Assembly: GCA_027605045.1 (NCBI GenBank)
Contig: JAQFWX010000002.1
Coordinates: 1,054,001 to 1,118,000, forward strand
Source: Phallus indusiatus
Taxonomy: Eukaryota > Basidiomycota > Agaricomycetes > Phallales > Phallaceae
Direction of reading: 5' to 3'
Length of the DNA: 64,000 nucleotides
The notes below the pieces were generated by a model. It was not told where the DNA came from and ran no database searches. It was given only the letters and a program-made list of their open reading frames with translations. This document shows positions 51,786-64,000 of this stretch, one piece after another. Position 1 is the stretch's first letter. Each line of letters opens with the position of its first letter. A program made the translations under genes and the position numbers.

Positions 51786-54561
51786 TTACGCTCCCTGAGA
51801 GATGCTCTTAAATTCAAGATCAGTACAAATCTGTGAGCATTTGTGTTGCCTCTCCCAAACTTTTATCCCCACCGCCTCCAAATTATGCGGGAAGTATTGA
51901 ACAGTGGGTGCCATACTTTCTTCATCCTCGCGGGAAACCTCACGATCACTGGAAAAATAGGTGTTAATACCTTGCAGAGGTAATGAATAAATAACTCCTT
52001 TACTCGTGTGTCGTAGCCGCAATAATTCTTGCGTGATTATTGGCCATATGCATATCTATAAATATTTGATTTGAGTTCATTCGCTATCCAAAATGGCTAA
52101 CTTACAAGCCCATGACGTGTGAACCAGCTTGTTTTCATAACGTTCGTACAAGAAATGCGAGAAAGCATTAAGAGTGTCATTAATCAGTGCATTTGTCGGC
52201 TCCCTATCAAAATCTCCATAAAACACTTGAGAAAAGGCGGGCACTTGAGCACAAAGCCATTCTTTAGTGTGACCGCTTTGCACTTTAATACGGATGAGTC
52301 GATAATCAAAACCGAGGTCTAAAAAAGTATGCATGAGAATGAGCGCAATTCTACTTACATGATAAATTCACTCACTGATTATCTCGACGTTGCGAGACTT
52401 GGCGAATGTTTCAAATTCTTCGTATAGTGATTGCAAATTATGGAAGCGGTTCATTTCGGCTATGATGGAAGTAGCCTCCGGAGCGATCGCAATATGCGAC
52501 ATATATGCTTCTGCTACACCAGTTTCGGATAGGGACACCTGGGATTTGAGTTAGCGACGGAAATATCAGTATATATTTCTCTCACTTTCCAAAACCTTGA
52601 ACGATTCATATTGTAAAGTTCCCCTTGATCAAGGGATATTCTGAGATTACCGGTTAGCTCGTCTCCTTCCTTAGGGATCATTTCGCCTTCAACAGGAAGA
52701 CCATCAGCATCAAGCCGCCGTCCCCACATTGTGATTTCACATTGGAATACTTCGTCATTGGACACGACACTAGTGAGACTTTGTCTTCGAGACCGCTTGC
52801 CGGATGAGATGGCGGTGGAAGGAGGACGCAAGAGCTCTTCCTCTGCAGTTGTGCGAGTTGATGTGTACGAAGCTCTAGAACGTTTGGTACTCGTCTTGGT
52901 ACCCAAATCAAGAAACCTGAGACTCTTGCACAGCGAATTACATCTATGCTGCATTTTAAACTCTGAAATTCCTTTCTCGCCATGATCCCCCAAACCAGAT
53001 TTCCCGTCAGATCTGTCAATTTAATTTAATTTTGCGAAGTAAGAAATGGCAAAATTCAAATTCTTACGTGTGCGTCATCAAATCAAACAATGTAAGTAAA
53101 TCTGACACGCGGAAACCATCCCGCAATTGAGGAGTCAAAATGCCTGCGTGGTATAAGTGCAGTCCTGATTGATACATCTATGCTAATGCTCCCGTACCTT
53201 GTATGTCGGCTAATACTAGCTGTTCATTGGTAAATATTAGGGAGAAATGTGCGAACGCGTCCATCGTCTGTCCGGGAATGGAATCATTGGATCCGGCAAC
53301 CATAGTTCCAGAGAATTTCACGACGTCTGGTGAGGATAACATAGGAGCCATTAAATAACTCCATCCAGGAATTTCGCCCGTTTGGACTATGGAAATCCAG
53401 CTTTCAGAAAAGGTAAAATCTTTGAGTAGTTTAGCAAAAATCTCCTCAGCCGCTACACAAATACGTACTTGCAACAGTAACTTCATATCGGCGTGCATGC
53501 TGTAGAAACTCCTTCCCGATGTTAGTAGCAATGACGTGCCGAGAAAGCTCATGCTCCAGGTGACGCCGATTATCAGCAATAGAAATAGTGCTTTCCGATC
53601 TCCCTAAGTTATAGAAACACTTTGCCGCGAAAATCTCCTTTCCTAATGTTGCCTAATGTTTAAATTTGCGGATTATAATTATATTCAAAGTCTGAAGCCG
53701 ATTGAACTTACACGGTACATTTTCTTGGTTGTCCCTGACTCTTGTGCCTCTTCGCTGATGTGGAGAATAATCGGCGTTGGAAGGATTTCAGTGCTCAACT
53801 TGGAGTCAGAGCCCAAAACTATATCTGTTAGGGCTACTCAGCTCACACTAGAGGGAGGGGATCCTAAGTAAAATATATTGGGAGAACTATACTACTCACC
53901 TAGAGGGAGGGGATCCTAAGAGAACAAGCTTAGGGACCCTCACTCTAGGGACAGCGACTATATACATGAAAAACGATAACGCGGTGTGCGGCCCTGCCAC
54001 AGCTAAGTGCTAGGCGCCCGAACCGAGCCTAAGCGACGTGATGTCACGGGCATCACGCCGGGTGCGAGCGCGCGACGCGCGCGAGTAGAGAATGCGAAAT
54101 AGAGACTGAACAGGGGAACGGAAGATAAAAGTAAAATACGGAAATAGTAAATGGAATGGAAATGAAGTGATGCCGATGATAATAAATAGAAAAATGAGAG
54201 ACGGTGGTAGCGTACCCTGACAATATCTAATCGCTCGACTACCACTCTATTTGACCGCACGGCCTGCGTGACATAAGGTGTAGAAATCATTGTCGGAAGC
54301 ACTATTTTATGTTTAGTATGAGAATTGCGACTAAATTAAAACATACCACTCGTTAATTGGGTTTCTGTGGACGAAGACTGCGCTGATCGTGAATGAAGAG
54401 CATTCCGGGCGTTTTCCCTGGCTGTTCTACGTCGAAGGAGTAATTCGTGAACCTGGTTCTCTGATAATGGAACTATAGCTGCACAATGCATCGTCGGCTG
54501 GTTCTTCTGATACTCAATTCGCGTAACAAAGGCATCTCTACGGGCTGGTTCGGTAATGCGC
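51786..54561 (-). CDS. Alpha-type protein kinase with two kinase-like domains, 5' end cut by a retrotransposon
   Basis: The first kinase-like domain (about 53650-52930) has KEIFAAKCFYNLGRSE, LEHELSRHVIATNIGKEFLQ, DAFAHFSLIFTNEQLVLADI followed by QG, GILTPQLRDG, and LGDHGEKGISEFKMQHRCNS then LCKSL. DIQG, the C-x3-C pair and the neighbouring His are hallmarks of the zinc-stabilised alpha-kinase fold (MHCK/eEF2K family). A Ser/Arg-rich linker with KRSRRQS follows, then a second, degenerate domain (GFDYRLIRIKVQSGHTKEWL, NAFSHFLYERYENKLVHTSW) lacking DIQG, ending HKCSQICTDLEFKSISQGA at 51786. Upstream exons IVLGSDSKLSTEILPTPII, LPTMISTPYVTQAVRSNRVV and RITEPARRDAFVTRIEYQKN run up to 54561, where an LTR begins, so the N terminus lies beyond the element or is lost. 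Joins between 53870 and 54220 are unresolved. Confidence 0.7.
53848..53948. repeat. Cluster of one direct and one inverted 20-21 bp repeat in the alpha-kinase gene
   Basis: The same 21-bp sequence (starting CTAGAGGGAGGGGATCC) occurs at 53848-53868 and 53900-53920. Only 8 nt further on, 53929-53948 is an imperfect reverse complement of it (CTTAGGGACCCTCACTCTAG). On the minus strand the two direct copies bound a 52-nt stretch that begins GTGAGT and ends CTCTAG. Confidence 0.85.
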
Positions 54562-55423
54562 TGTAACGATCCGATGCGAATAGCTAAATGTGTCGGCTAT
54601 AGATGATCGGACTACAATGAGATATTTGGTTCGAGGTCAGTAAGTCTACCGTGGAGCGTGTCCTGGTGCTGAATTCAACGTGAGCGAGGGAGTGGGTGTG
54701 TGTGGATGCTGAGAAGGAGGGGATGTATGCGCTGATATGAAACCAACACAGACAAAACACAAACAACAAATACAACGACTAAGAGATGTCGTATGCAGAT
54801 GTGCAAGTGAGGGAATGAACAGAGAGTCGGCAATGAGCTTGAAATGCGACTAAAGAGAGGACCTGCAATCAATGATGACTGAATTCCTGTGCGAGTTAGT
54901 GAAAGCGATAAACTGAAATAAAATCGCTAGTTTATACTCCAAGACCTCACTCAGAGTTAATCCAAAGATACAGATATGAGCGTAGAAATAGACTAGAGGC
55001 GAAACTTGACTTGAGCTGAACTTGACTTAAACTGAAATTGACTGAGACTTAAACTGTGAGACAACTCGTCCGGTAGAATTGCTGCTGATACAAGTATTTA
55101 CATGCAGTATTTATACCTTTCAGAGTACATAGCATTGGTGAGACGATCACTCATCGTTCACCGGGATAACAAACAGGAAGAAACAAAAGAACAAAAAGAA
55201 ATATGGAAGATAGGGGAATCGCGAGAGAATGATGGGGATACAATTACAACAAAAAGGAGTCATAACCATAGATAGGAGAAAATGATGAAGCCAAAACAAA
55301 AGAACAAAAGAAAACAAAAAAGAGATCAAATAGGAAGAACAAAACCGGCTTGAGACACAGCCCTTGCCTGACTCAACACCTGGCACTTCCCGCGCTGCCT
55401 CTATCCTGTACCATACCATATCA
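54562..55423 (-). repeat. 3' LTR of the retrotransposon
   Basis: Starts TGTAACG at 54562 (on the element strand it ends CGTTACA). The other end is inferred as ATATCA at 55423, giving TG...CA termini and placing a purine-rich tract (AGTAAGAAGAATAAGA on the element strand) immediately upstream. About 862 bp. It contains a block of near-repeats of ACTTGACT/AACTGA type (54998-55055). Confidence 0.85.
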
Positions 55424-55434
55424 TCTTATTCTTC

Positions 55435-56016
55435 TTACTGATCTGGCTCTGGCTGCTGAGATCGGCTTCTTCGTGGCAGTGGAAGAATGATGTGAGGGGT
55501 AGGTAACGATGGTCGCCTCAGATCTTCGAACAGATCATTTTCCACTTCTTGATATGAGGGAGGAGGGCGAGTAAGATCATCTGAAAAGTCTGGGGGAGGT
55601 GGCATGACGGATAGGGGGGCATCGACAAATAGAAACTGTATGTATCCATAAAACCAATTGCGGAAAACTAATCTCCATATAAGTACTCCATCCCTTTGAG
55701 CTCTCAGGAACCCGACAAACTCATACGATTCGTGCATGACATTGATGTCCGTTCGTTCGTATAGAGTTAGTGCTCGCGGGTATTCTAGTTCTAAATCATC
55801 GTAAGGAAGGGTTATTTCCAAAGATGGGGGAGGTGTAGCGGGGAGTACTGTATTAGCGTCGATATGGATTTCGGAGGTGAAGGTGTTGTAGACACGGATT
55901 ATGGTAAGGAAGTCGGGATTAGGGCCGGTTCTGAGAGAAGAACGGAACGAAAAAGGGAAAAATGGGAGTTGTAAATAGGGGACAGAATTTTGGGAAGTTT
56001 CGCTATTGTTCGACAT
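55435..56016 (-). CDS. Retrotransposon accessory frame 3 (aORF3), unknown
   Basis: 193 codons from ATG 56016 (MSNNSETSQNSVPYLQL) to a stop only about 12 bp from the inferred LTR edge. It lies in the position where some Ty3/gypsy elements carry env, but I see no signal peptide or transmembrane helix. Features: a beta-like hydrophobic core (DFLTIIRVYNTFTSEIHID, IWRLVFRNWFYGYIQFLFVD) and a Pro-rich C terminus with the PPxY motif PPPSY in TRPPPSYQEVENDLFED, a form that recruits Nedd4/Rsp5-type ubiquitin ligases in other proteins. It resembles accessory frames 1 and 2 taken together. No match to a named family from memory. Confidence 0.6.
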   Translation of the reverse strand: MSNNSETSQNSVPYLQLPFFPFSFRSSLRTGPNPDFLTIIRVYNTFTSEIHIDANTVLPATPPPSLEITLPYDDLELEYPRALTLYERTDINVMHESYEFVGFLRAQRDGVLIWRLVFRNWFYGYIQFLFVDAPLSVMPPPPDFSDDLTRPPPSYQEVENDLFEDLRRPSLPTPHIILPLPRRSRSQQPEPDQ

Positions 56017-56121
56017 AGTGGGAGGGGATAAGATGAGAGAAGCGCTAAAGAATTGCTCAAAGTAGGAGAAGAAAAATAAGTGGATCTGATTGTTTTTGCC
56101 TCGTACGCTATCTTTATTGTT

Positions 56122-56532
56122 CTAGGTTCGTCCAAAAATGTTGGAACAAGCTCGTCGGATCTTTCGGAAGGATCGTTTGGTGGGAGAAGCGGGACTGGGA
56201 AGGTTAGGGGAGGACTGCGTTGGAGAAGTGTCGAATGATAAAGGGGAGAATCGTGATGGTGGGGTGTCTTCTGGAATAGGATTCGTGGGTCTGGAAGGGC
56301 TAAGTTTTTGTGTACTCATGCCCTTCATGATTACCCATCGACTTGGCACGTCCAGTACTAAAAACGTGAACTTGAATCCTTCTTGAGTTGCTAACCATAT
56401 TCGATACAAGTCTCGTTTTGCTGATTCTGGTGTCAAATATATGTTAACAACTGTAAACCAGTTTAATTGTTCCTCGATATAAACTTTCTCTCCAAACATG
56501 ATCCCGGGTGAACCAGATCCGAACTTCTGCAC
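56122..56532 (-). CDS. Retrotransposon accessory frame 2 (aORF2), unknown
   Basis: Open for more than 130 codons; the first ATG in frame is at 56499 (MFGEKVYIEEQLNWFTVV). It has a hydrophobic core FKFTFLVLDVPSRWVIMKG and a Ser/Pro-rich basic tail (SPTKRSFRKIRRACSNIFGR). The frame is also open upstream of that ATG, overlapping accessory frame 1, to a stop codon just past the segment encoding LTEGTFTYRYPSV. It looks like the C-terminal half of the same protein whose N-terminal half is accessory frame 1, in a different frame. Confidence 0.5.
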   Translation of the reverse strand: MQKFGSGSPGIMFGEKVYIEEQLNWFTVVNIYLTPESAKRDLYRIWLATQEGFKFTFLVLDVPSRWVIMKGMSTQKLSPSRPTNPIPEDTPPSRFSPLSFDTSPTQSSPNLPSPASPTKRSFRKIRRACSNIFGRT

Positions 56533-56897
56533 TGACGGATAACGATAGGTGAAGGTTCCTTCGGTAAGTGCGTGTCCCGATCGAGGTCGAGGCTTGCATA
56601 TTTGGAACTATAGATATACAAAGTCGTAAAAAGATCCAAATCGTATGTCCTGGGACTGGTAGGCGAATAGCGAAAAGGAGACATAGATTCATTATCAGAA
56701 AGAATTGGTGATTCGGTGGAGGAATTTGGAATTGGTAAAGAGACTGAGGATGAGTAATGGAACGAAAACGTAGTCATTTTATTGTTTTGAATTTTTGAGG
56801 CTGTGATGTTGGCGATATGGGATTTCTGGATGATTAGAACTCCGCTTTGAACAAAAAAAGAACCTTCCCCAATTAGGAAGATTTTGGTGCGCGACAT
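56463..56897 (-). CDS. Retrotransposon accessory frame 1 (aORF1), unknown
   Basis: Begins close to the pol stop (56928). The likely start is the internal ATG of MTTFSFHYSSSVSLPIPN (about 56778); the codons before it could be a fortuitous extension. It is Ser/Pro-rich and then has DLDLFTTLYIYSSKYASLDL, DRDTHLPKEPSPIV, which lines up with DFLTIIRVYNTFTSEIHID, ANTVLPATPPPSL of accessory frame 3. After that the frame loses resemblance and ends at 56463, while the matching continuation is in accessory frame 2. Confidence 0.5.
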   Translation of the reverse strand: MSRTKIFLIGEGSFFVQSGVLIIQKSHIANITASKIQNNKMTTFSFHYSSSVSLPIPNSSTESPILSDNESMSPFRYSPTSPRTYDLDLFTTLYIYSSKYASLDLDRDTHLPKEPSPIVIRQCRSSDLVHPGSCLERKFISRNN

Positions 56898-56927
56898 CCA
56901 CCCTGAACTTGAAATGACTGTCCCTAG

Positions 56928-59900
56928 TCAGAAATCTTCATCATCTCCAAAATCTTCCACAACCTGGTCATCGGCTTCTTTGGCTTCTTCTTCTTGCAAC
57001 GGTTCAATAGAAACTTCATCATCAACTCTGGGATAATAGAGAATTAACCTAAACCCTGCAATTGCAACTCGGGATACTGTTCCATCTAATTCCTTTAAAA
57101 TATATGTTCCTCGGAGTGTTCTCTTGACAACTTCGTAAGGACCAATATAGCGTGGTTTAGTCTTTCGGTCAAGTTCCTTCTCAATGCGTGAATTCCGAAC
57201 CAAAACTAAATCTCCAGGCTTAAATTCTTCTCGCTGTATGCGCTGTGCAAATTTCTTCTCAAAGGCTTCCTTGCTGTGAAGTCGACTGCGATGAAGGATC
57301 TTTTCAGCTCGTGAAACATCGCTGTCCATTTTCCTGATTTGCTGAACTCGTAAGGCAATTAGATCTTCTGTGGCAAGATTTCTGTCGAATCCAGAGACCA
57401 AAAATGTAGCTTCGAAGAGGTCGAGGGGGAGCGTAGGATGTTGACCATAAAGTAGATAATAGGGCGAAAAACCAGTAGCTCGTCGAACAGTAACTCTATC
57501 AGCGAAAAACACATGAGGAATGAGCTCAGGCCATTTTGAAATATTGCCTTGACATGACTTGATTAAGGCTTCTCGAATCGTGAAGTGTCCTCGCTCTACG
57601 ACTCCATTGGCTTGGGAATTGTAAGGTGAAATTCGAATTTGCTTGATATTGTAGCGTCGCATGAGTTCTTCTGTTGCAGCTTTAGTTTCTGGTCCATTAT
57701 CAGTGACGATTTCTTCAATAACTCCATATCGGCAAATAAGTTCCTCGAAAATAAATTGTGCTACTGAACGTGCGGTGGCTTTCTTGAGTTTACGTCCTTC
57801 AGCTGCTCCTGATAGATCGTCTCGAGCTGCTATGACATATCGATAACCTTGAGCGGGTGTCATGAGCATAATATCAAGGTAAACTTTGGTAAAAAGCGAG
57901 GTTGGATGAGAAATAGTGATGGGTATATGCATCTTGATCGTGGAACGAAGTTGGCAGGGGTGACATGATCGACAAAAGTCATGGACTTCTTCTCGAATTG
58001 TAGGCCAATAGTAGCGTAAGGAGATGTGGCAGTATGTCGCAAATCCTCCTCGGTGTCCTAAATCGTCATGGGCCATCTTGAGTAATGTTTTCCTGTGATC
58101 TCTATCTAGAATTACGCGTAAATGATGAAGGGGGTGCTTTTTGAAAAATAAATTGTCCTGAACAAAGAATTTTTGTGATTTTCGAATAAAACTTTTCTTA
58201 TGAGAGGGAGAATCAAAGGGAGGCAAGATAAAATGAGAAAGAAATTGAAAAATGTGGTGAAGCTGCTCGTCATCTATTCGTTTGCTGTTGATTGCGAGCA
58301 ACCACCCTGAACTTAAATTAAGAGTCTGAGAAGGGGAAAAAGAATGAGAAAGAAATAGAGCATATTCTGTGTTTTTGTGATTTTCTTCATTTTCGCTTTC
58401 GCTCTCGTGAGCTTCTTCTTCGTTCCAATCTTCGGGTAATGGTGGTCGTCGGGATAATGCGTCTGGTCCTTTGTGTGATTCTGCTGGGACATGTTTTAGC
58501 TGGAAATGGTATAGCAAAATTCCTTCAATCCATCGGTTAAGCGTGGCATTTGGGGCGATATCTGGATTGTTGATCATAGATTTGATGTAAGATGCATCAA
58601 CTTCTACAATAAAATTGAGTAGACCGGCAATGTAATAGCGACAAGCCTTGAGTGCGCGATATAATCCATATAACTCGAGTTTAGCTTGGCTATACTTTGC
58701 TTCGTTTGAGGAAATAGGGAGGGATCCAAAACGAACAGGTCTTCTTCGGCCTTCAGAATCCATCTGATACAAAATAAATCCGATTGCAATGACTGAAGTG
58801 TCTACTGCAAGAATAACGGGGTGTGGTGAGGAATAGTCAATAGGAACAAGTGCGGGGGAATTTGCAATCTCATTCTTCAAGTCTTCAAATGCAGCTTGTC
58901 GAACAGGTGTCCATTCGAAAGGTACTTCTTTTCGAACTAATTCTGAGAGTGGTCGCGATCGTGCAGAATAATTCTTGATCCAAATGCGCATTGTTCCGCA
59001 AAGTCCTAAAAACTGACGAACTTGAGTAACTGAAGTAGGAGGCGGCCAGGTTTGAATCTTCTTAACACGCTTCTCGTCTGGTAATCGTCCAGTATAAGTC
59101 AATTTCTGTCCAATAAGCACAATCTCGGGTTGCGCTATTTTTGACTTCTTCGGTGAGATAGTAGCGCCGGCATGACTGAGTCTGTGAAGGATACGATGAA
59201 CATCTTCGGCATGTTCCCAAATAAAACGTCGAATTCCAGGGTTCTGAGGAATGACTTCGAATGTTCCATCGGCTTGCTCGTAACGTGTATGCGGTCCTTG
59301 AATACCAACGTCATCGATCATAACGCTTGCTTTAGTTGGAAATTCGGGTTGTAAGATGAACGAAGTGCAATTTTGAAATTCAGCGACTGAATTGGTAAAT
59401 CCTTGAGGAAGAACTGTAGAGCGTAGAAGTCCTAATGGTGTATGAAATGACGTAAGGTCTCGACTCTTGACATGGATCTTGCGTGCGTCATATCCGGATA
59501 ATAGATCAAAGCTAGAATAGACTGAAGCGCCTGTGAAGGGTTCTAACATTTCATCTGTGTTTGGAGGCATTCCTGCATCTCGAATTGTGACTGAATTAAG
59601 GGGTTGATGATCGATAATCTGACGAATTCCTCCGTCGGTCTTCTTGATGAAAAACATGGCAGTTCGATAAGATGCTTGACTATATTCGTAGACTCCAATG
59701 TCAAGTTTCTTCTTCAACGCTTCGATGACTTGTGTTCGAATTCCTGGAGGTACAGGGATTGGTTTCTTCATCCAAGGTATATGCTGTACTACAGGGATAA
59801 TGTAATCGGAAAAATAATCTGACCGGAGAGTTCCTCGTTCTGTTTCGTTGAAAGCGAGTACAGATTCATTTTGTTGGAAGACGGAGATGAATAGTTTTTC

Positions 59901-60434
59901 TTCTTCTGGCCAAAGAAAGCCTGAATCATTTATGCGGAGTATTCGGAGGCGTTCTGCGGTGAGTTTGGATGATGGAATAAATGTCGGTGGATGAGGGGAT
60001 AAGGGAGTAAGGGAAATAAGGGGATCTTCGGGAAATCTTCTCGTCACAAGACAATCCTGGGGAAGTATTGCTGGCACGGGCCGGATCTTCTTGTCGACGG
60101 TCTTGTATGCGGTTAAAATGTCGGAAAATTGAGGATAATATTCGGGATTTTCTTCATAATGTTTTAAAAGGAGCCTATAAATAAAGTGATTGGGGATAAA
60201 GTTCGAGTCGTCACCGGGTTCATAAATAGGAAGCGAAATAAATAGGGAGATGGAGAAACGAATATTATAAGGGTCGGAAAAGGATGAATCTATTCCTGGT
60301 GAGGGTCGGGTGCATTCTTCTCTATGGTACGTCCATCTATCCTCTGAGGAGCTCTGTCGTCCAAGTGAAAATCCCTTGGGTGGAGACGTGCATCTTCTTT
60401 CGCATCTTTGGATGGTACGGCATTTATTCTCCAT
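56928..60434 (-). CDS. pol: Retrotransposon Pol: reverse transcriptase, RNase H, integrase
   Basis: 1168 codons from ATG 60434, in the -1 frame relative to gag and overlapping it by 145 nt. RT: MKKPIPVPPGIRTQVIEALK, SSFDLLSGYDARKIHV (about 308-323), LPQGFTNSVAEFQN, and VMIDDVGIQGP (about 368-378), an IDD form of the YxDD box. RNase H: PVILAVDTSVIAIGFILYQM (about 545) and KLELYGLYRALKACRYYI. Integrase: zinc finger H-x5-H...C-x2-C in HDDLGHRGGFATYCHISLRY and CRSCHPCQ (about 788-828), then catalytic D in VYLDIMLMTP (about 853), D in IVTDNGPE (about 912) and E in NGVVERGH (about 946). The C terminus has an SH3-like GPYEVVKRTLRGTYILKELD but no chromodomain that I can see. It copies and integrates the element; all catalytic residues seem present. 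Confidence 0.93.
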   Translation of the reverse strand: MENKCRTIQRCERRCTSPPKGFSLGRQSSSEDRWTYHREECTRPSPGIDSSFSDPYNIRFSISLFISLPIYEPGDDSNFIPNHFIYRLLLKHYEENPEYYPQFSDILTAYKTVDKKIRPVPAILPQDCLVTRRFPEDPLISLTPLSPHPPTFIPSSKLTAERLRILRINDSGFLWPEEEKLFISVFQQNESVLAFNETERGTLRSDYFSDYIIPVVQHIPWMKKPIPVPPGIRTQVIEALKKKLDIGVYEYSQASYRTAMFFIKKTDGGIRQIIDHQPLNSVTIRDAGMPPNTDEMLEPFTGASVYSSFDLLSGYDARKIHVKSRDLTSFHTPLGLLRSTVLPQGFTNSVAEFQNCTSFILQPEFPTKASVMIDDVGIQGPHTRYEQADGTFEVIPQNPGIRRFIWEHAEDVHRILHRLSHAGATISPKKSKIAQPEIVLIGQKLTYTGRLPDEKRVKKIQTWPPPTSVTQVRQFLGLCGTMRIWIKNYSARSRPLSELVRKEVPFEWTPVRQAAFEDLKNEIANSPALVPIDYSSPHPVILAVDTSVIAIGFILYQMDSEGRRRPVRFGSLPISSNEAKYSQAKLELYGLYRALKACRYYIAGLLNFIVEVDASYIKSMINNPDIAPNATLNRWIEGILLYHFQLKHVPAESHKGPDALSRRPPLPEDWNEEEAHESESENEENHKNTEYALFLSHSFSPSQTLNLSSGWLLAINSKRIDDEQLHHIFQFLSHFILPPFDSPSHKKSFIRKSQKFFVQDNLFFKKHPLHHLRVILDRDHRKTLLKMAHDDLGHRGGFATYCHISLRYYWPTIREEVHDFCRSCHPCQLRSTIKMHIPITISHPTSLFTKVYLDIMLMTPAQGYRYVIAARDDLSGAAEGRKLKKATARSVAQFIFEELICRYGVIEEIVTDNGPETKAATEELMRRYNIKQIRISPYNSQANGVVERGHFTIREALIKSCQGNISKWPELIPHVFFADRVTVRRATGFSPYYLLYGQHPTLPLDLFEATFLVSGFDRNLATEDLIALRVQQIRKMDSDVSRAEKILHRSRLHSKEAFEKKFAQRIQREEFKPGDLVLVRNSRIEKELDRKTKPRYIGPYEVVKRTLRGTYILKELDGTVSRVAIAGFRLILYYPRVDDEVSIEPLQEEEAKEADDQVVEDFGDDEDF

Positions 60435-63172
60435 TCTTCATGTCCATATGCATCTCTCTTGACGAGGTGCGTTCCTGTGTATTCTTCACGAACTTCAATT
60501 CGGTTTTGTCGCATCCATGGTCGTCCCAAAATTAGAGGATGAGGGAGCAGTGGTGATACCCAAATTTCATCGGCAATACTCCAAGCTCGTTCTCCTATTT
60601 GTATTTTCACGTTATATGCTCTTTCATCTAGCGTAGTCTTGTTGGAGGAGGCGTCCATTAATATCTTTGAGATGCCTGAATGGTACACTAAACCTGAATT
60701 TGGAGTTACTACGGAACTGATGCAATTCACGTCTGCTCCAGTGTCTATAAGGGCAATGATGGAGTATCCGTTTGGGAATTTGACATTTAGGAATATAAGT
60801 CGAGAATCTTCTGGATGATAGCTGGCCAAGAATTTTCGGGACGCTTCGGTTGCTGGGACTCTTTGGATATCTTCTTCAGCATCTGTTGTTGTTTCGGCTG
60901 CCTCGGGGATCGCGGTTACTTCGGTTATCGTGGCTACAGGTATTTCATCTCGAGTAGGTCGAAGTTTTGCTATCATCATTTTGTCGAGCGTAGGTGCAGC
61001 TGCAAAAACTTCTCGAAGCGTAAGTCCTGCATTTTGATCTAACATCCGATTTAGCGTGTTGTCCATATTGACTTCTCGTTCGAAAGAATTGCGAAATTTC
61101 TTGACAATTTCGGTGGACTCGGACTCTGGCTTTTCTTTAACGATGGCCGGCTTAGGGGTGGCTGGACGTGGTGCAGGTCGCTTTACTCTAGTAGGGACAG
61201 GGTCTTGCATTCTAACATCGGTTATCTCTTCTCCTCGCATAGGAAATGGGATATGAGTGACTTTCGGCTCTGGAACAGGTGCCTGAACTGGTACTGGTGT
61301 TTGAATAGGAAGCTGAGGTTGCAACGCTGGAGGTAACTTGGAAGGTGCTAATTGCGTAGTTGGCTCTGTATTAGGTGCGGAAGGAGCTGATTTGGGTATG
61401 GCAGGATTAACTGGCCGTTTCATGATCTCAACTCCATCAAAGCGTAATCGTTTAGCGTAAGGGGCTGTACGGACAGAGTCTTTTCCTTTTTCGTCCTTGG
61501 TCCGCGCGATAGGGTACGCTTCAGAAAAGTATTCTCTACTAAAAATGTTATCTACTGAACACGCTTGGTTATACTCATCGTCGCTTAACATGATCTCTTC
61601 TCTATCTCTCCCGTAATTATTTATTGAAGAGTAGTGGCTAATACTATCTGGGAAAGGAAGGGAATTGGTGGAAGAAATAATGGTATTGGCCGTTACTGGT
61701 ACGCGTTGGACGTCCAATTGTCGATTGATAGCCGCAAGCAGCGATTCACCATTGAATCTGGTGATCGGCTTACCCGTGCTAGACCATACGTATTTGTTAT
61801 CGGCACTGACAGTGATATAACCTTGATCCATGAATGTAGTAGCGTGAGGGCAGCGATGCATCGTGTGTCCGGATTCATCGCAGAAGTAGCAGACGACGTT
61901 TGCATTGTTAGTGGGGTTGCTGATCGTGCGAGGACGAGGAACAGGGGGAATTTGTACAGGGAGTGGATTGGACGGAGGCATAGATGAAGGAATAGAATGT
62001 GGCATATTAAATAAAGTGAGAAGGACAGGAGCAAGAGACGGGGACAAGGTAGCAATACGGTGGTACGCGGAGAGAATCGCAGGGTAGTCGCGGAGAGTCA
62101 GCTTTTCGTTGAACTCTTTGATTAGTTTATCGATCTCGTCCGTATCGCTCTTTGTTACACGTTTCGACGCAGTCGGATAGTTTCCCGTCGGCTGTGACGG
62201 CGTACTATGTTTCGGCACTGAGGGCAAAGACGACGATTCCTGCGGAGTAGGTTGTAACATATCCAAGCCAGGAGAAGTACCGCTATGCCGTTCAGGCAAA
62301 GGAATGCGATCATCATTTGAATGCCGACGTTGAGCATGGTGGGAGGATGACTTCTTAGACTTCTTAGACTTCTTTTTGCTGTGTCTTTTATAGCTTCTTT
62401 CTTCATCGGAACTTTCATCCCAACCAGAGTCGCTTTCCGTTTCGGATTCAGATCCGGAGCTAGTTAAGATGACTTCATCATCGGAATTGGACTGCTTTCT
62501 TGATTTCTTGCGCCTTTCCATTCTGTGTTGCTGATCGTACCTCTTCGGATCTAATATGAATTTGATTACGGTTATGATCTCTTTCTTGGTATACGGGTTC
62601 TCCATACTACGTCCTGGATACGTTGCTACTAAATGTAAGTCGCTTCGTCTTTTGAGATCTTTGGAAAGCCCTTCCCAAAAGCGTAAGTTGTACCTGTTTT
62701 CGTCGATTACGCCTTTCTTTAATAGTTTTCCGGCTATTAAGTCGAAGTTACGAGTGTATTTATTGAATTCATATAGATCTAGAATTTCGCCTTCACGTTG
62801 ATCTTCTACAAAATCGTTGAGCTTTTCTTCGGTGTAACGCTTTGTGTCCTTGCGAGCACCATAAACTTCGCGCATATATTCGATGAATTCGGTCCAATTC
62901 TTTTCGAAGGATTCAAGACTTTCCATATGTTTCTTGACCCTCTTGGACACATATTGTGGGATCCTCGCGAATTTGTCTTTGTCAGATAACTTGTATACTT
63001 TGCATAGATCTTCAAACTGATCGAAGAAGGCCTTGGCTTCAGAGGTTTTGCCTGTGAATTTTCTGGGGGCTCGAGTAGATCTGGGTAGCGGAAACTCCAT
63101 TTTCTTGACGTCATAATTGGGATTCGCTTCGGTAGTTTCGGGTTTAAGAGGAAGAGGATCGGAAGTAGGCAT
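60290..63172 (-). CDS. gag: Retrotransposon Gag with zinc knuckle and aspartic protease
   Basis: 960 codons from ATG 63172 (MPTSDPLPLKPETTEANPNY). The capsid-like region (residues about 30-210) includes FTGKTSEAKAFFDQFEDLCK and YTRNFDLIAGKLLKKG, typical of basidiomycete gypsy Gag. A Ser/Lys/Asp-rich linker follows, then a CCHC knuckle CYFCDESGHTMHRC (about 426-439), a long Pro-rich region, and at about residue 805 the retropepsin motif IALIDTGADVNCISS with LILGRPW some 60 residues on. So the protease is at the end of Gag rather than the start of Pol. Ends at 60290, overlapping pol. Confidence 0.9.
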   Translation of the reverse strand: MPTSDPLPLKPETTEANPNYDVKKMEFPLPRSTRAPRKFTGKTSEAKAFFDQFEDLCKVYKLSDKDKFARIPQYVSKRVKKHMESLESFEKNWTEFIEYMREVYGARKDTKRYTEEKLNDFVEDQREGEILDLYEFNKYTRNFDLIAGKLLKKGVIDENRYNLRFWEGLSKDLKRRSDLHLVATYPGRSMENPYTKKEIITVIKFILDPKRYDQQHRMERRKKSRKQSNSDDEVILTSSGSESETESDSGWDESSDEERSYKRHSKKKSKKSKKSSSHHAQRRHSNDDRIPLPERHSGTSPGLDMLQPTPQESSSLPSVPKHSTPSQPTGNYPTASKRVTKSDTDEIDKLIKEFNEKLTLRDYPAILSAYHRIATLSPSLAPVLLTLFNMPHSIPSSMPPSNPLPVQIPPVPRPRTISNPTNNANVVCYFCDESGHTMHRCPHATTFMDQGYITVSADNKYVWSSTGKPITRFNGESLLAAINRQLDVQRVPVTANTIISSTNSLPFPDSISHYSSINNYGRDREEIMLSDDEYNQACSVDNIFSREYFSEAYPIARTKDEKGKDSVRTAPYAKRLRFDGVEIMKRPVNPAIPKSAPSAPNTEPTTQLAPSKLPPALQPQLPIQTPVPVQAPVPEPKVTHIPFPMRGEEITDVRMQDPVPTRVKRPAPRPATPKPAIVKEKPESESTEIVKKFRNSFEREVNMDNTLNRMLDQNAGLTLREVFAAAPTLDKMMIAKLRPTRDEIPVATITEVTAIPEAAETTTDAEEDIQRVPATEASRKFLASYHPEDSRLIFLNVKFPNGYSIIALIDTGADVNCISSVVTPNSGLVYHSGISKILMDASSNKTTLDERAYNVKIQIGERAWSIADEIWVSPLLPHPLILGRPWMRQNRIEVREEYTGTHLVKRDAYGHEEWRINAVPSKDAKEDARLHPRDFHLDDRAPQRIDGRTIEKNAPDPHQE

Positions 63173-63292
63173 ATTGGGATAGAGTGGTCAGGGGAATGGA
63201 AGTATGAATGAGATGTCGGTTAGATAAGGAGATGGGATGTTGTTGTGATGGTTGGTTGCGGATGAATGTGAAAGCAGCTTAGACTAGTGGCC

Positions 63293-63308
63293 TCTCTGGG
63301 GCAGCCAC
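63293..63308 (-). other. Probable primer-binding site
   Basis: On the element strand, four bases after the inferred end of the 5' LTR comes TGGCTGCCCCAGAGAG. It begins TGG, as expected for pairing with the CCA end of a tRNA primer, so the primer tRNA should end ...GGGGCAGCCA. The tRNA identity is not determined. Confidence 0.5.
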
Positions 63309-63311
63309 TTT

Positions 63312-64000
63312 TGTAACGATCCGATGCGAATAGCTAAATGTGTCGGCTATAGATGATCGGACTACAATGAGATATTTGGTTCGAGGTCAGTAAGTCTACC
63401 GTGGAGCGTGTCCTGGTGCTGAATTCAACGTGAGCGAGGGAGTGGGTGTGTGTGGATGCTGAGAAGGAGGGGATGTATGCGCTGATATGAAACCAACACA
63501 GACAAAACACAAACAACAAATACAACGACTAAGAGATGTCGTATGCAGATGTGCAAGTGAGGGAATGAACAGAGAGTCGGCAATGAGCTTGAAATGCGAC
63601 TAAAGAGAGGACCTGCAATCAATGATGACTGAATTCCTGTGCGAGTTAGTGAAAGCGATAAACTGAAATAAAATCGCTAGTTTATACTCCAAGACCTCAC
63701 TCAGAGTTAATCCAAAGATACAGATATGAGCGTAGAAATAGACTAGAGGCGAAACTTGACTTGAGCTGAACTTGACTTAAACTGAAATTGACTGAGACTT
63801 AAACTGTGAGACAACTCGTCCGGTAGAATTGCTGCTGATACAAGTATTTACATGCAGTATTTATACCTTTCAGAGTACATAGCATTGGTGAGACGATCAC
63901 TCATCGTTCACCGGGATAACAAACAGGAAGAAACAAAAGAACAAAAAGAAATATGGAAGATAGGGGAATCGCGAGAGAATGATGGGGATACAATTACAAC
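63312..64000 (-). repeat. 5' LTR of the retrotransposon, truncated by the window
   Basis: Identical by eye to 54562-55250 over 689 bp. By comparison it should end near 64173. It contains the transcription start of the element, which is read leftward. Confidence 0.9.

Follow-up and report, generated by a model that had tools for sequence, protein, structure and literature searches.

Accessory genes that lie in the U3 region of a long terminal repeat (LTR), and thus follow the remaining genes in the transcript, are represented by sag of MMTV and the bel genes of foamy viruses. To our knowledge, the only cases of genes within LTRs are those of a few vertebrate retroviruses, although LTR-borne ORFs may also occur in elements of Moniliophthora. 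The fungal Ty3/gypsy element described here resembles MMTV and the foamy viruses in the U3 location of its two accessory genes, termed A and B. This likeness concerns position. Neither A nor B gave a match in Pfam, and the systems differ in that MMTV and foamy viruses are vertebrate retroviruses with an env gene, whereas this element has no recognisable env and carries two genes that are probably related to each other. Among the matches listed in a literature search in which most subscription journals were outside the scope, none described genes inside the LTRs of a fungal element by its title or the start of its abstract.

Additional ORFs between pol and the 3’ end are described for plant Ty3/gypsy elements in a review (PMC7264820), in which search terms for LTR-internal ORFs gave no passage, and reportedly also occur in the plant Ty3/gypsy element Retand (PMC11963269). 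Extra ORFs after pol are shared by these plant elements and the present element, with those of the latter being situated within the LTR. For crapaud, an LTR retrotransposon of Podospora anserina, diversity concentrated in U3 is reported as well as LTR recombinants, with the authors discussing promoter function (PMC10787394). These features, together with its fungal host, make crapaud similar to the present element, while its LTRs are of 339-443 bp and two ORFs (gag and pol) are named in a figure legend. Boty of Botrytis is a fungal element with an extra gene, brtn, which is antisense according to the title of its report, whereas A and B are in the sense orientation.

The element was examined in a stretch of 64,000 nucleotides (the window) along with further genomic loci that were read and are numbered L001 to L081. 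All of its features in the window are on the minus strand. Using blastn of both element ends, a 3’ LTR of 2335 bp was identified at positions 54562-56896, starting with TGTCGCGCACC and ending with GTTACA on the minus strand. The 3’ part of the 5’ LTR was found at 63312-64000, with the repeat continuing to window coordinate 65642 in the neighbouring locus L039. Comparison of the two LTRs revealed 0 substitutions, with gaps of only 1-2 bases, all of which were situated in plus-strand G runs. A gag frame was identified by translation at 60290-63187, with motifs near its end that we take by eye to be a CCHC knuckle and a DTG protease motif, along with a pol frame at 56928-60437, in which the Pfam domains RVT_1, RT_RNaseH, Integrase_H2C2 and rve were found above cut-off and in this order. 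A candidate primer-binding site, TGGCTGCCCCAGAGAGGC, adjoins the 5’ LTR at 63290-63307 (position counted by hand), and a target-site duplication (TSD), GCGC, is located at 54558-54561, with its other copy beyond the 5’ LTR and outside the window. The assignment to Ty3/gypsy made in the first-pass annotation, which was based on the letters of the window and their open frames, is supported by this order of reverse transcriptase, RNase H and integrase in pol, by the near-identical LTR pair and by the 4-bp TSD. The gag-protease and pol frames were also observed to overlap in different frames at 60290-60437, an arrangement that suggests programmed frameshifting.

The same annotation had described three open frames filling the stretch 55435-56897 and had placed them between pol and the 3’ LTR. 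These frames were found to be present on the minus strand, as were the amino-acid blocks quoted from them, but their placement has to be revised. Since a second copy of the sequence 54562-56896 begins at 63312-64000 and extends into L039, the frames lie inside the LTR, with pol ending (56928) 31 bp outside of it. Frames 56463-56927 and 56122-56607 together represent a broken gene A, while frame 55435-56121 is that of gene B. Gene A (56122-56777, with ATG and TAG checked) encodes 218 aa in intact copies, and the two frames over which the first copy had been described are a defect of the window copy rather than the design of the gene, which consists of a single frame of 218 codons when intact. 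Gene B (55435-56016, with ATG at 56016) is open in the window and encodes 193 aa with a C-terminal PPSY motif; its length in relatives was found to be 185-196 codons.

A TATA box (GGTATAAATAC) was identified at 55110-55115, with a putative U3/R boundary approximately 30 bp downstream, and presumably acts as the promoter of the element. In the four LTRs of a second family (family 2, described below) for which values were obtained, the 60-base bin around this box has an identity of 88-98%. A second TATA-like site is found at 54931-54936, 179 bp from the first. Both genes are placed in the U3 of both LTRs, taking the start of R as predicted, since they lie upstream of the TATA box at 55115 and its spacing of 179 bp to 54936 is kept in a distant family (the family-2 LTR of L080). 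The element thus has two protein-coding ORFs inside the LTR and upstream of the TATA box, as is the case for U3-encoded accessory genes. An RNA started at the first TATA would contain a single copy of A and B, downstream of pol and ahead of the terminal R. We hold the anatomy of the element as described with high confidence.

In the window element, the A frame is broken in the 3’ LTR and open in the 5’ LTR, while the match to B in the 5’ LTR contains two stops. A sequencing or assembly error is a plausible cause of these broken frames, as the two LTRs differ only in the lengths of G runs. Translated searches of the genome gave 144 pieces for B and at least 150 pieces for the A2 piece (the best 150 of 178 candidates), these being pieces of matches and not copies. 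Intact copies were also found in the genome. For B, 25 of 38 family-1 matches that covered 194 or more of the 197 query residues were without an in-frame stop, and for A this was the case for 48 of 59 matches, drawn from both families, with a coverage of 209 or more of 215 residues; both were counted from match tables, with copies split by a frameshift, such as that of A in the window, lying outside the denominators. At one more distant locus (L081, approximately 50% pol identity), no A- or B-like frame was found in the 3.6 kb downstream of pol at C140, with best E values of 0.032 and 0.25.

Two families of LTR were distinguished, between which the A proteins share 45% and the B proteins 34% identity, with the gene order being A then B in both families at the loci read. 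Estimation of dN/dS by the NG86 method for A gave 0.21-0.25 between family-1 subfamilies (dS 0.43-0.51), 0.07-0.09 between family-2 subfamilies and, in comparisons across the two families (dS 1.3-3.1), 0.17-0.35. The values obtained for B were 0.12-0.18 (family 1) and 0.10-0.12 (family 2), with dS between families being saturated for nearly all pairs. Very close pairs showed a wider scatter of dN/dS, with one A pair at 0.54 at a dS of 0.018. These ratios give a clear indication of purifying selection on both A and B. The view of the first-pass annotation that the frames are real accessory genes, for which it had proposed such an estimate, is borne out by values well below 1 between subfamilies for both genes. 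Relatives (P0001-P0004) were also identified in other public contigs.

That annotation had further put forward, from an alignment by eye, tandem duplication of a single gene and subsequent divergence as the origin of the two genes, and had suggested profile-profile comparison as a check. The alignment obtained was weak, with hhalign returning a P value of 0.017 for A against B and 0.0074 with relatives added, while the corresponding probabilities were only 2.6% and 5.2%. The whole-protein profile score was reached by column shuffles in 1 of 805 trials. In domain trials with three gap settings, column shuffles reached the observed score in 13, 3 and 5 of 1500, and in two-block trials this was the case for 9, 1, 2 and 1 of 3000. 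Single-block shuffles were less clear, with the observed value being reached in 36, 55, 24 and 13 of 3000. Most of the signal derives from an N-terminal block (DLFTTLYIYSS.. with DFLTIIRVYNT..). The C-terminal block (FLVLDVP/FLFVDAP) was aligned in the whole-protein profile alignment and in one of the three domain settings, whereas the second block in the two-block trials was located in P/S-rich tails or at the N-terminus and never at this C-terminal block.

The best evidence for the relatedness of A and B is reciprocal ranking among 1344 open frames of at least 60 codons from the window and loci L001-L080. Using the A profile, 38 B-tagged frames (best E 0.0015) were ranked ahead of the first unrelated frame (E 0.48), and using the B profile, 35 A-tagged frames (best E 0.00056) were ranked ahead of the first untagged frame (E 0.39), with tags being assigned from a motif list and copies in the ranking not being independent of each other. 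Two untagged frames above the B block were found by inspection to be A fragments. The proposed homology is thus upheld at a moderate level by reciprocal ranking and shuffling, while hhalign leaves it with a probability under 6% and its significance rests on the N-terminal block. AlphaFold modelling of an A relative predicted a beta-rich core, with block-mean pLDDT of 78-92 over residues 51-150 and a pTM of 0.48, from an alignment of 5 rows, with the five models differing (mean pLDDT from 60.6 down to 40.2). The model of B, with two alignment rows, was unusable (pLDDT 34.8). The data support a view of A and B as divergent versions of a single small beta-rich domain, each with a P/S-rich tail, and we consider it very probable, short of proof, that the two are paralogues.

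The LTRs were found to be combined with bodies of the element in more than one way. The last 200 residues of the window pol gave at least five genomic matches at 99-100% identity and at least five at 43-50%, among the best 150 of 258 candidates. For the gag frame, residues 1-263 gave four matches at 100% (rounded), with a fifth at 99% over residues 39-263. Two of the five elements with near-identical gag-pol (L068 and L080) possess family-2 LTRs, meaning that gag and pol are at least 99% identical in the parts compared, yet are associated with LTRs of either family. Ungapped comparison of the window element with L080 illustrates this, with identities of 99.2% for the final 600 bp of pol and 100% for the spacer. 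Within the LTR, the value falls to 66.4% for the first part, to 55.6% for A and to 50.3% for B, and is 76.7% from the B stop to the TATA box and 79.9% from there to the LTR end. The element to which L080 belongs has, behind its 5’ LTR (L064), a leader that is again 99.3% identical to that of the window over 294 bp.

Exchange was also observed within the LTR. Among 54 LTR loci, 22 were found to combine a family-1 U3 with the R-U5 type of the window and 10 a family-1 U3 with a family-2 R-U5, while 14 were of family 2 in both parts, three joined a family-2 U3 to the R-U5 type of the window and five were undecided. These loci are not independent, as both LTRs of five full-length elements are included; neighbouring loci with starts less than 1.2 kb apart on the same contig were counted as one, and L026, L032, L035, L059, L075 and L076 were omitted as they gave no R-U5 match of at least 350 bp. 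The clearest mosaic is L061, where A and B of family 2 are joined to an R-U5 that is 100% identical to that of the window, with the switch at the TATA box. The opposite combination, with the switch in the same place, was found for L003, L010 and L012, which may descend from one recombinant. Breakpoints were located elsewhere in L002 (near offset 2040) and L006 (near 1980), both downstream of the TATA box, and their position was unclear in L005, L024 and L078. At the level of sequence, the U3 block, the R-U5 and the gag-pol body therefore occur in exchanged combinations. As a separate observation within family 1, A and B subtypes, defined by identity to A and B of the window, were found in all four combinations (L011, L022, L023 and L001).

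First-strand transfer between two RNAs joins the U3 of one to the R-U5 of the other, and breakpoints near the start of R fit such a transfer for this reason. The mosaics may thus have arisen when minus-strand strong-stop DNA was transferred from one co-packaged RNA to another of a different type, an origin that we rate as somewhat more probable than otherwise. Part of the mosaics, and also the mixtures of A and B subtypes in L011 and L022, is likely to be explained by gene conversion between LTRs.

LTR ends were located at 15 of 21 loci tried, and at 13 of these a perfect 4-bp TSD was found to flank a single LTR (L061, L062, L071, L072, L065, L066, L067, L003, L004, L006, L010, L012 and L022). 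As the duplications lie on both sides of a single LTR, these can be categorized as solo LTRs. Both the A and B frames are open in four of them (L061, L062, L071 and L072). All 13 TSDs are of the form NCGN, as is the GCGC of the window element, while CG makes up 4.8% of the dinucleotides in the window, and on this basis integration seems to prefer CG.

Taken together, we consider it probable that this is a Ty3/gypsy element with a U3 carrying two paralogous accessory genes under selection, A then B, that are exchanged between elements. With regard to what the gene products may do, no match was found for A or B among sequences of solved structures, and a fold search gave weak matches but no clear one for the A model, which was the only model good enough to be searched, the model of B not being usable; a known fold may nonetheless be present. 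Near the C-terminus of B, an [LP]PxY motif (PPSY, LPTY or LPEY) was found in 13 of 13 aligned proteins, with the relative P0003 having LPSY. Three of three family-1 A proteins lacked such a motif, as did P0001 and P0002. The position of this PY-like motif is conserved in B, such that a candidate ligand motif for WW domains of the Nedd4 type is found in B and is not found in family-1 A, although PY-like motifs arise easily in P-rich tails. Family-2 A was observed to contain LPVY and PPRY (L061, L063 and L074), and family-2 B an extra PPPY near the N-terminus (L061, L070, L074 and L079). The tail of A has a conserved basic C-terminal segment with a Cys, which is replaced by Tyr in P0004.

A and B could be adaptor proteins that are produced from the 3’-terminal part of the element RNA and act on the particle or on a host factor. 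The [LP]PxY of B would recruit a WW-domain ubiquitin ligase of Nedd4/Rsp5 type to that target, while the basic segment of A might, with low confidence, place A at a membrane or in the nucleus. A role as ligase adaptors, of the Nedd4/Rsp5 type via B, is the leading guess as to function, and a tentative one.

The other roles considered differ in how well they suit the data. A and B might act as transactivators of their own U3 promoter in the manner of bel1/tas of foamy viruses, which overlaps U3, with the A tail being a nuclear signal and the genes being inherited together with the promoter under their control. Such co-transfer with the A-B cassette was indeed observed for the noncoding part of U3 from B to the TATA box in L061, L003, L010 and L012, where R-U5 is exchanged, and the C-terminus of A is basic and conserved. 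However, plain linkage would result in the same association, and no DNA-binding family or fold was found in the above searches; we regard this role as possible but doubtful. Alternatively, the genes could serve self-recognition, either as copy-number control, for which the Ty1 restriction factor p22 is a comparison, or by keeping out related elements, in which case the U3 genes would have diversified on a gag-pol body that stayed constant. Identities of 100% for gag and 99% for pol (parts compared), next to 45% and 34% for A and B of different families, would suit this, as would the solo LTRs L061, L062, L071 and L072 with both frames open. Selection is on average purifying and not diversifying, though, and the divergence may reflect an old split followed by LTR exchange, making self-recognition an unlikely role.

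Three further explanations were considered. Some accessory ORFs in LTR elements have their origin in gene capture, and A and B might accordingly be host genes carried as passengers, with no role for the element. Such an origin is improbable, given the low dN/dS for both genes in both families and the genome matches listed, which fall into two LTR families by identity, although a host homologue may exist, as the surroundings were read for a minority of these matches. The position after pol would also be that of envelope remnants, but the genes form two separate frames and hydropathy revealed no membrane helix in B or two A proteins (best 19-residue means of 0.93 for B and of 0.89 and 1.33 for A), in line with the first-pass annotation, and we consider this origin highly improbable. 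LTRs are usually noncoding, and the frames could in principle be open by chance in a long LTR; values of dN/dS well below 1 between subfamilies, the retention of both proteins at 34-45% identity between families and the presence of relatives P0001-P0004 elsewhere make this so improbable as to be virtually dismissed.

Returning to accessory genes that act for the element, or on it, the LTR might as a whole be viewed as a travelling two-gene module. U3 cassettes of A and B would diversify and be redealt at strong-stop transfer among near-identical gag-pol bodies, while solo LTRs would persist as two-gene loci that could influence active elements in trans, whether to their benefit or their detriment. 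We put this forward as speculative and rather unlikely in its full form.

Annotation that treats LTRs as noncoding would miss genes of this kind. As U3 is copied into both LTRs and can be moved by strand transfer, A and B would be exchangeable without gag and pol being involved, and both genes can be retained in full by a solo LTR. If true, a fungal Ty3 element with two related genes in its LTR would show that U3 can house genes in a further branch of retroelements besides that of the retroviruses.
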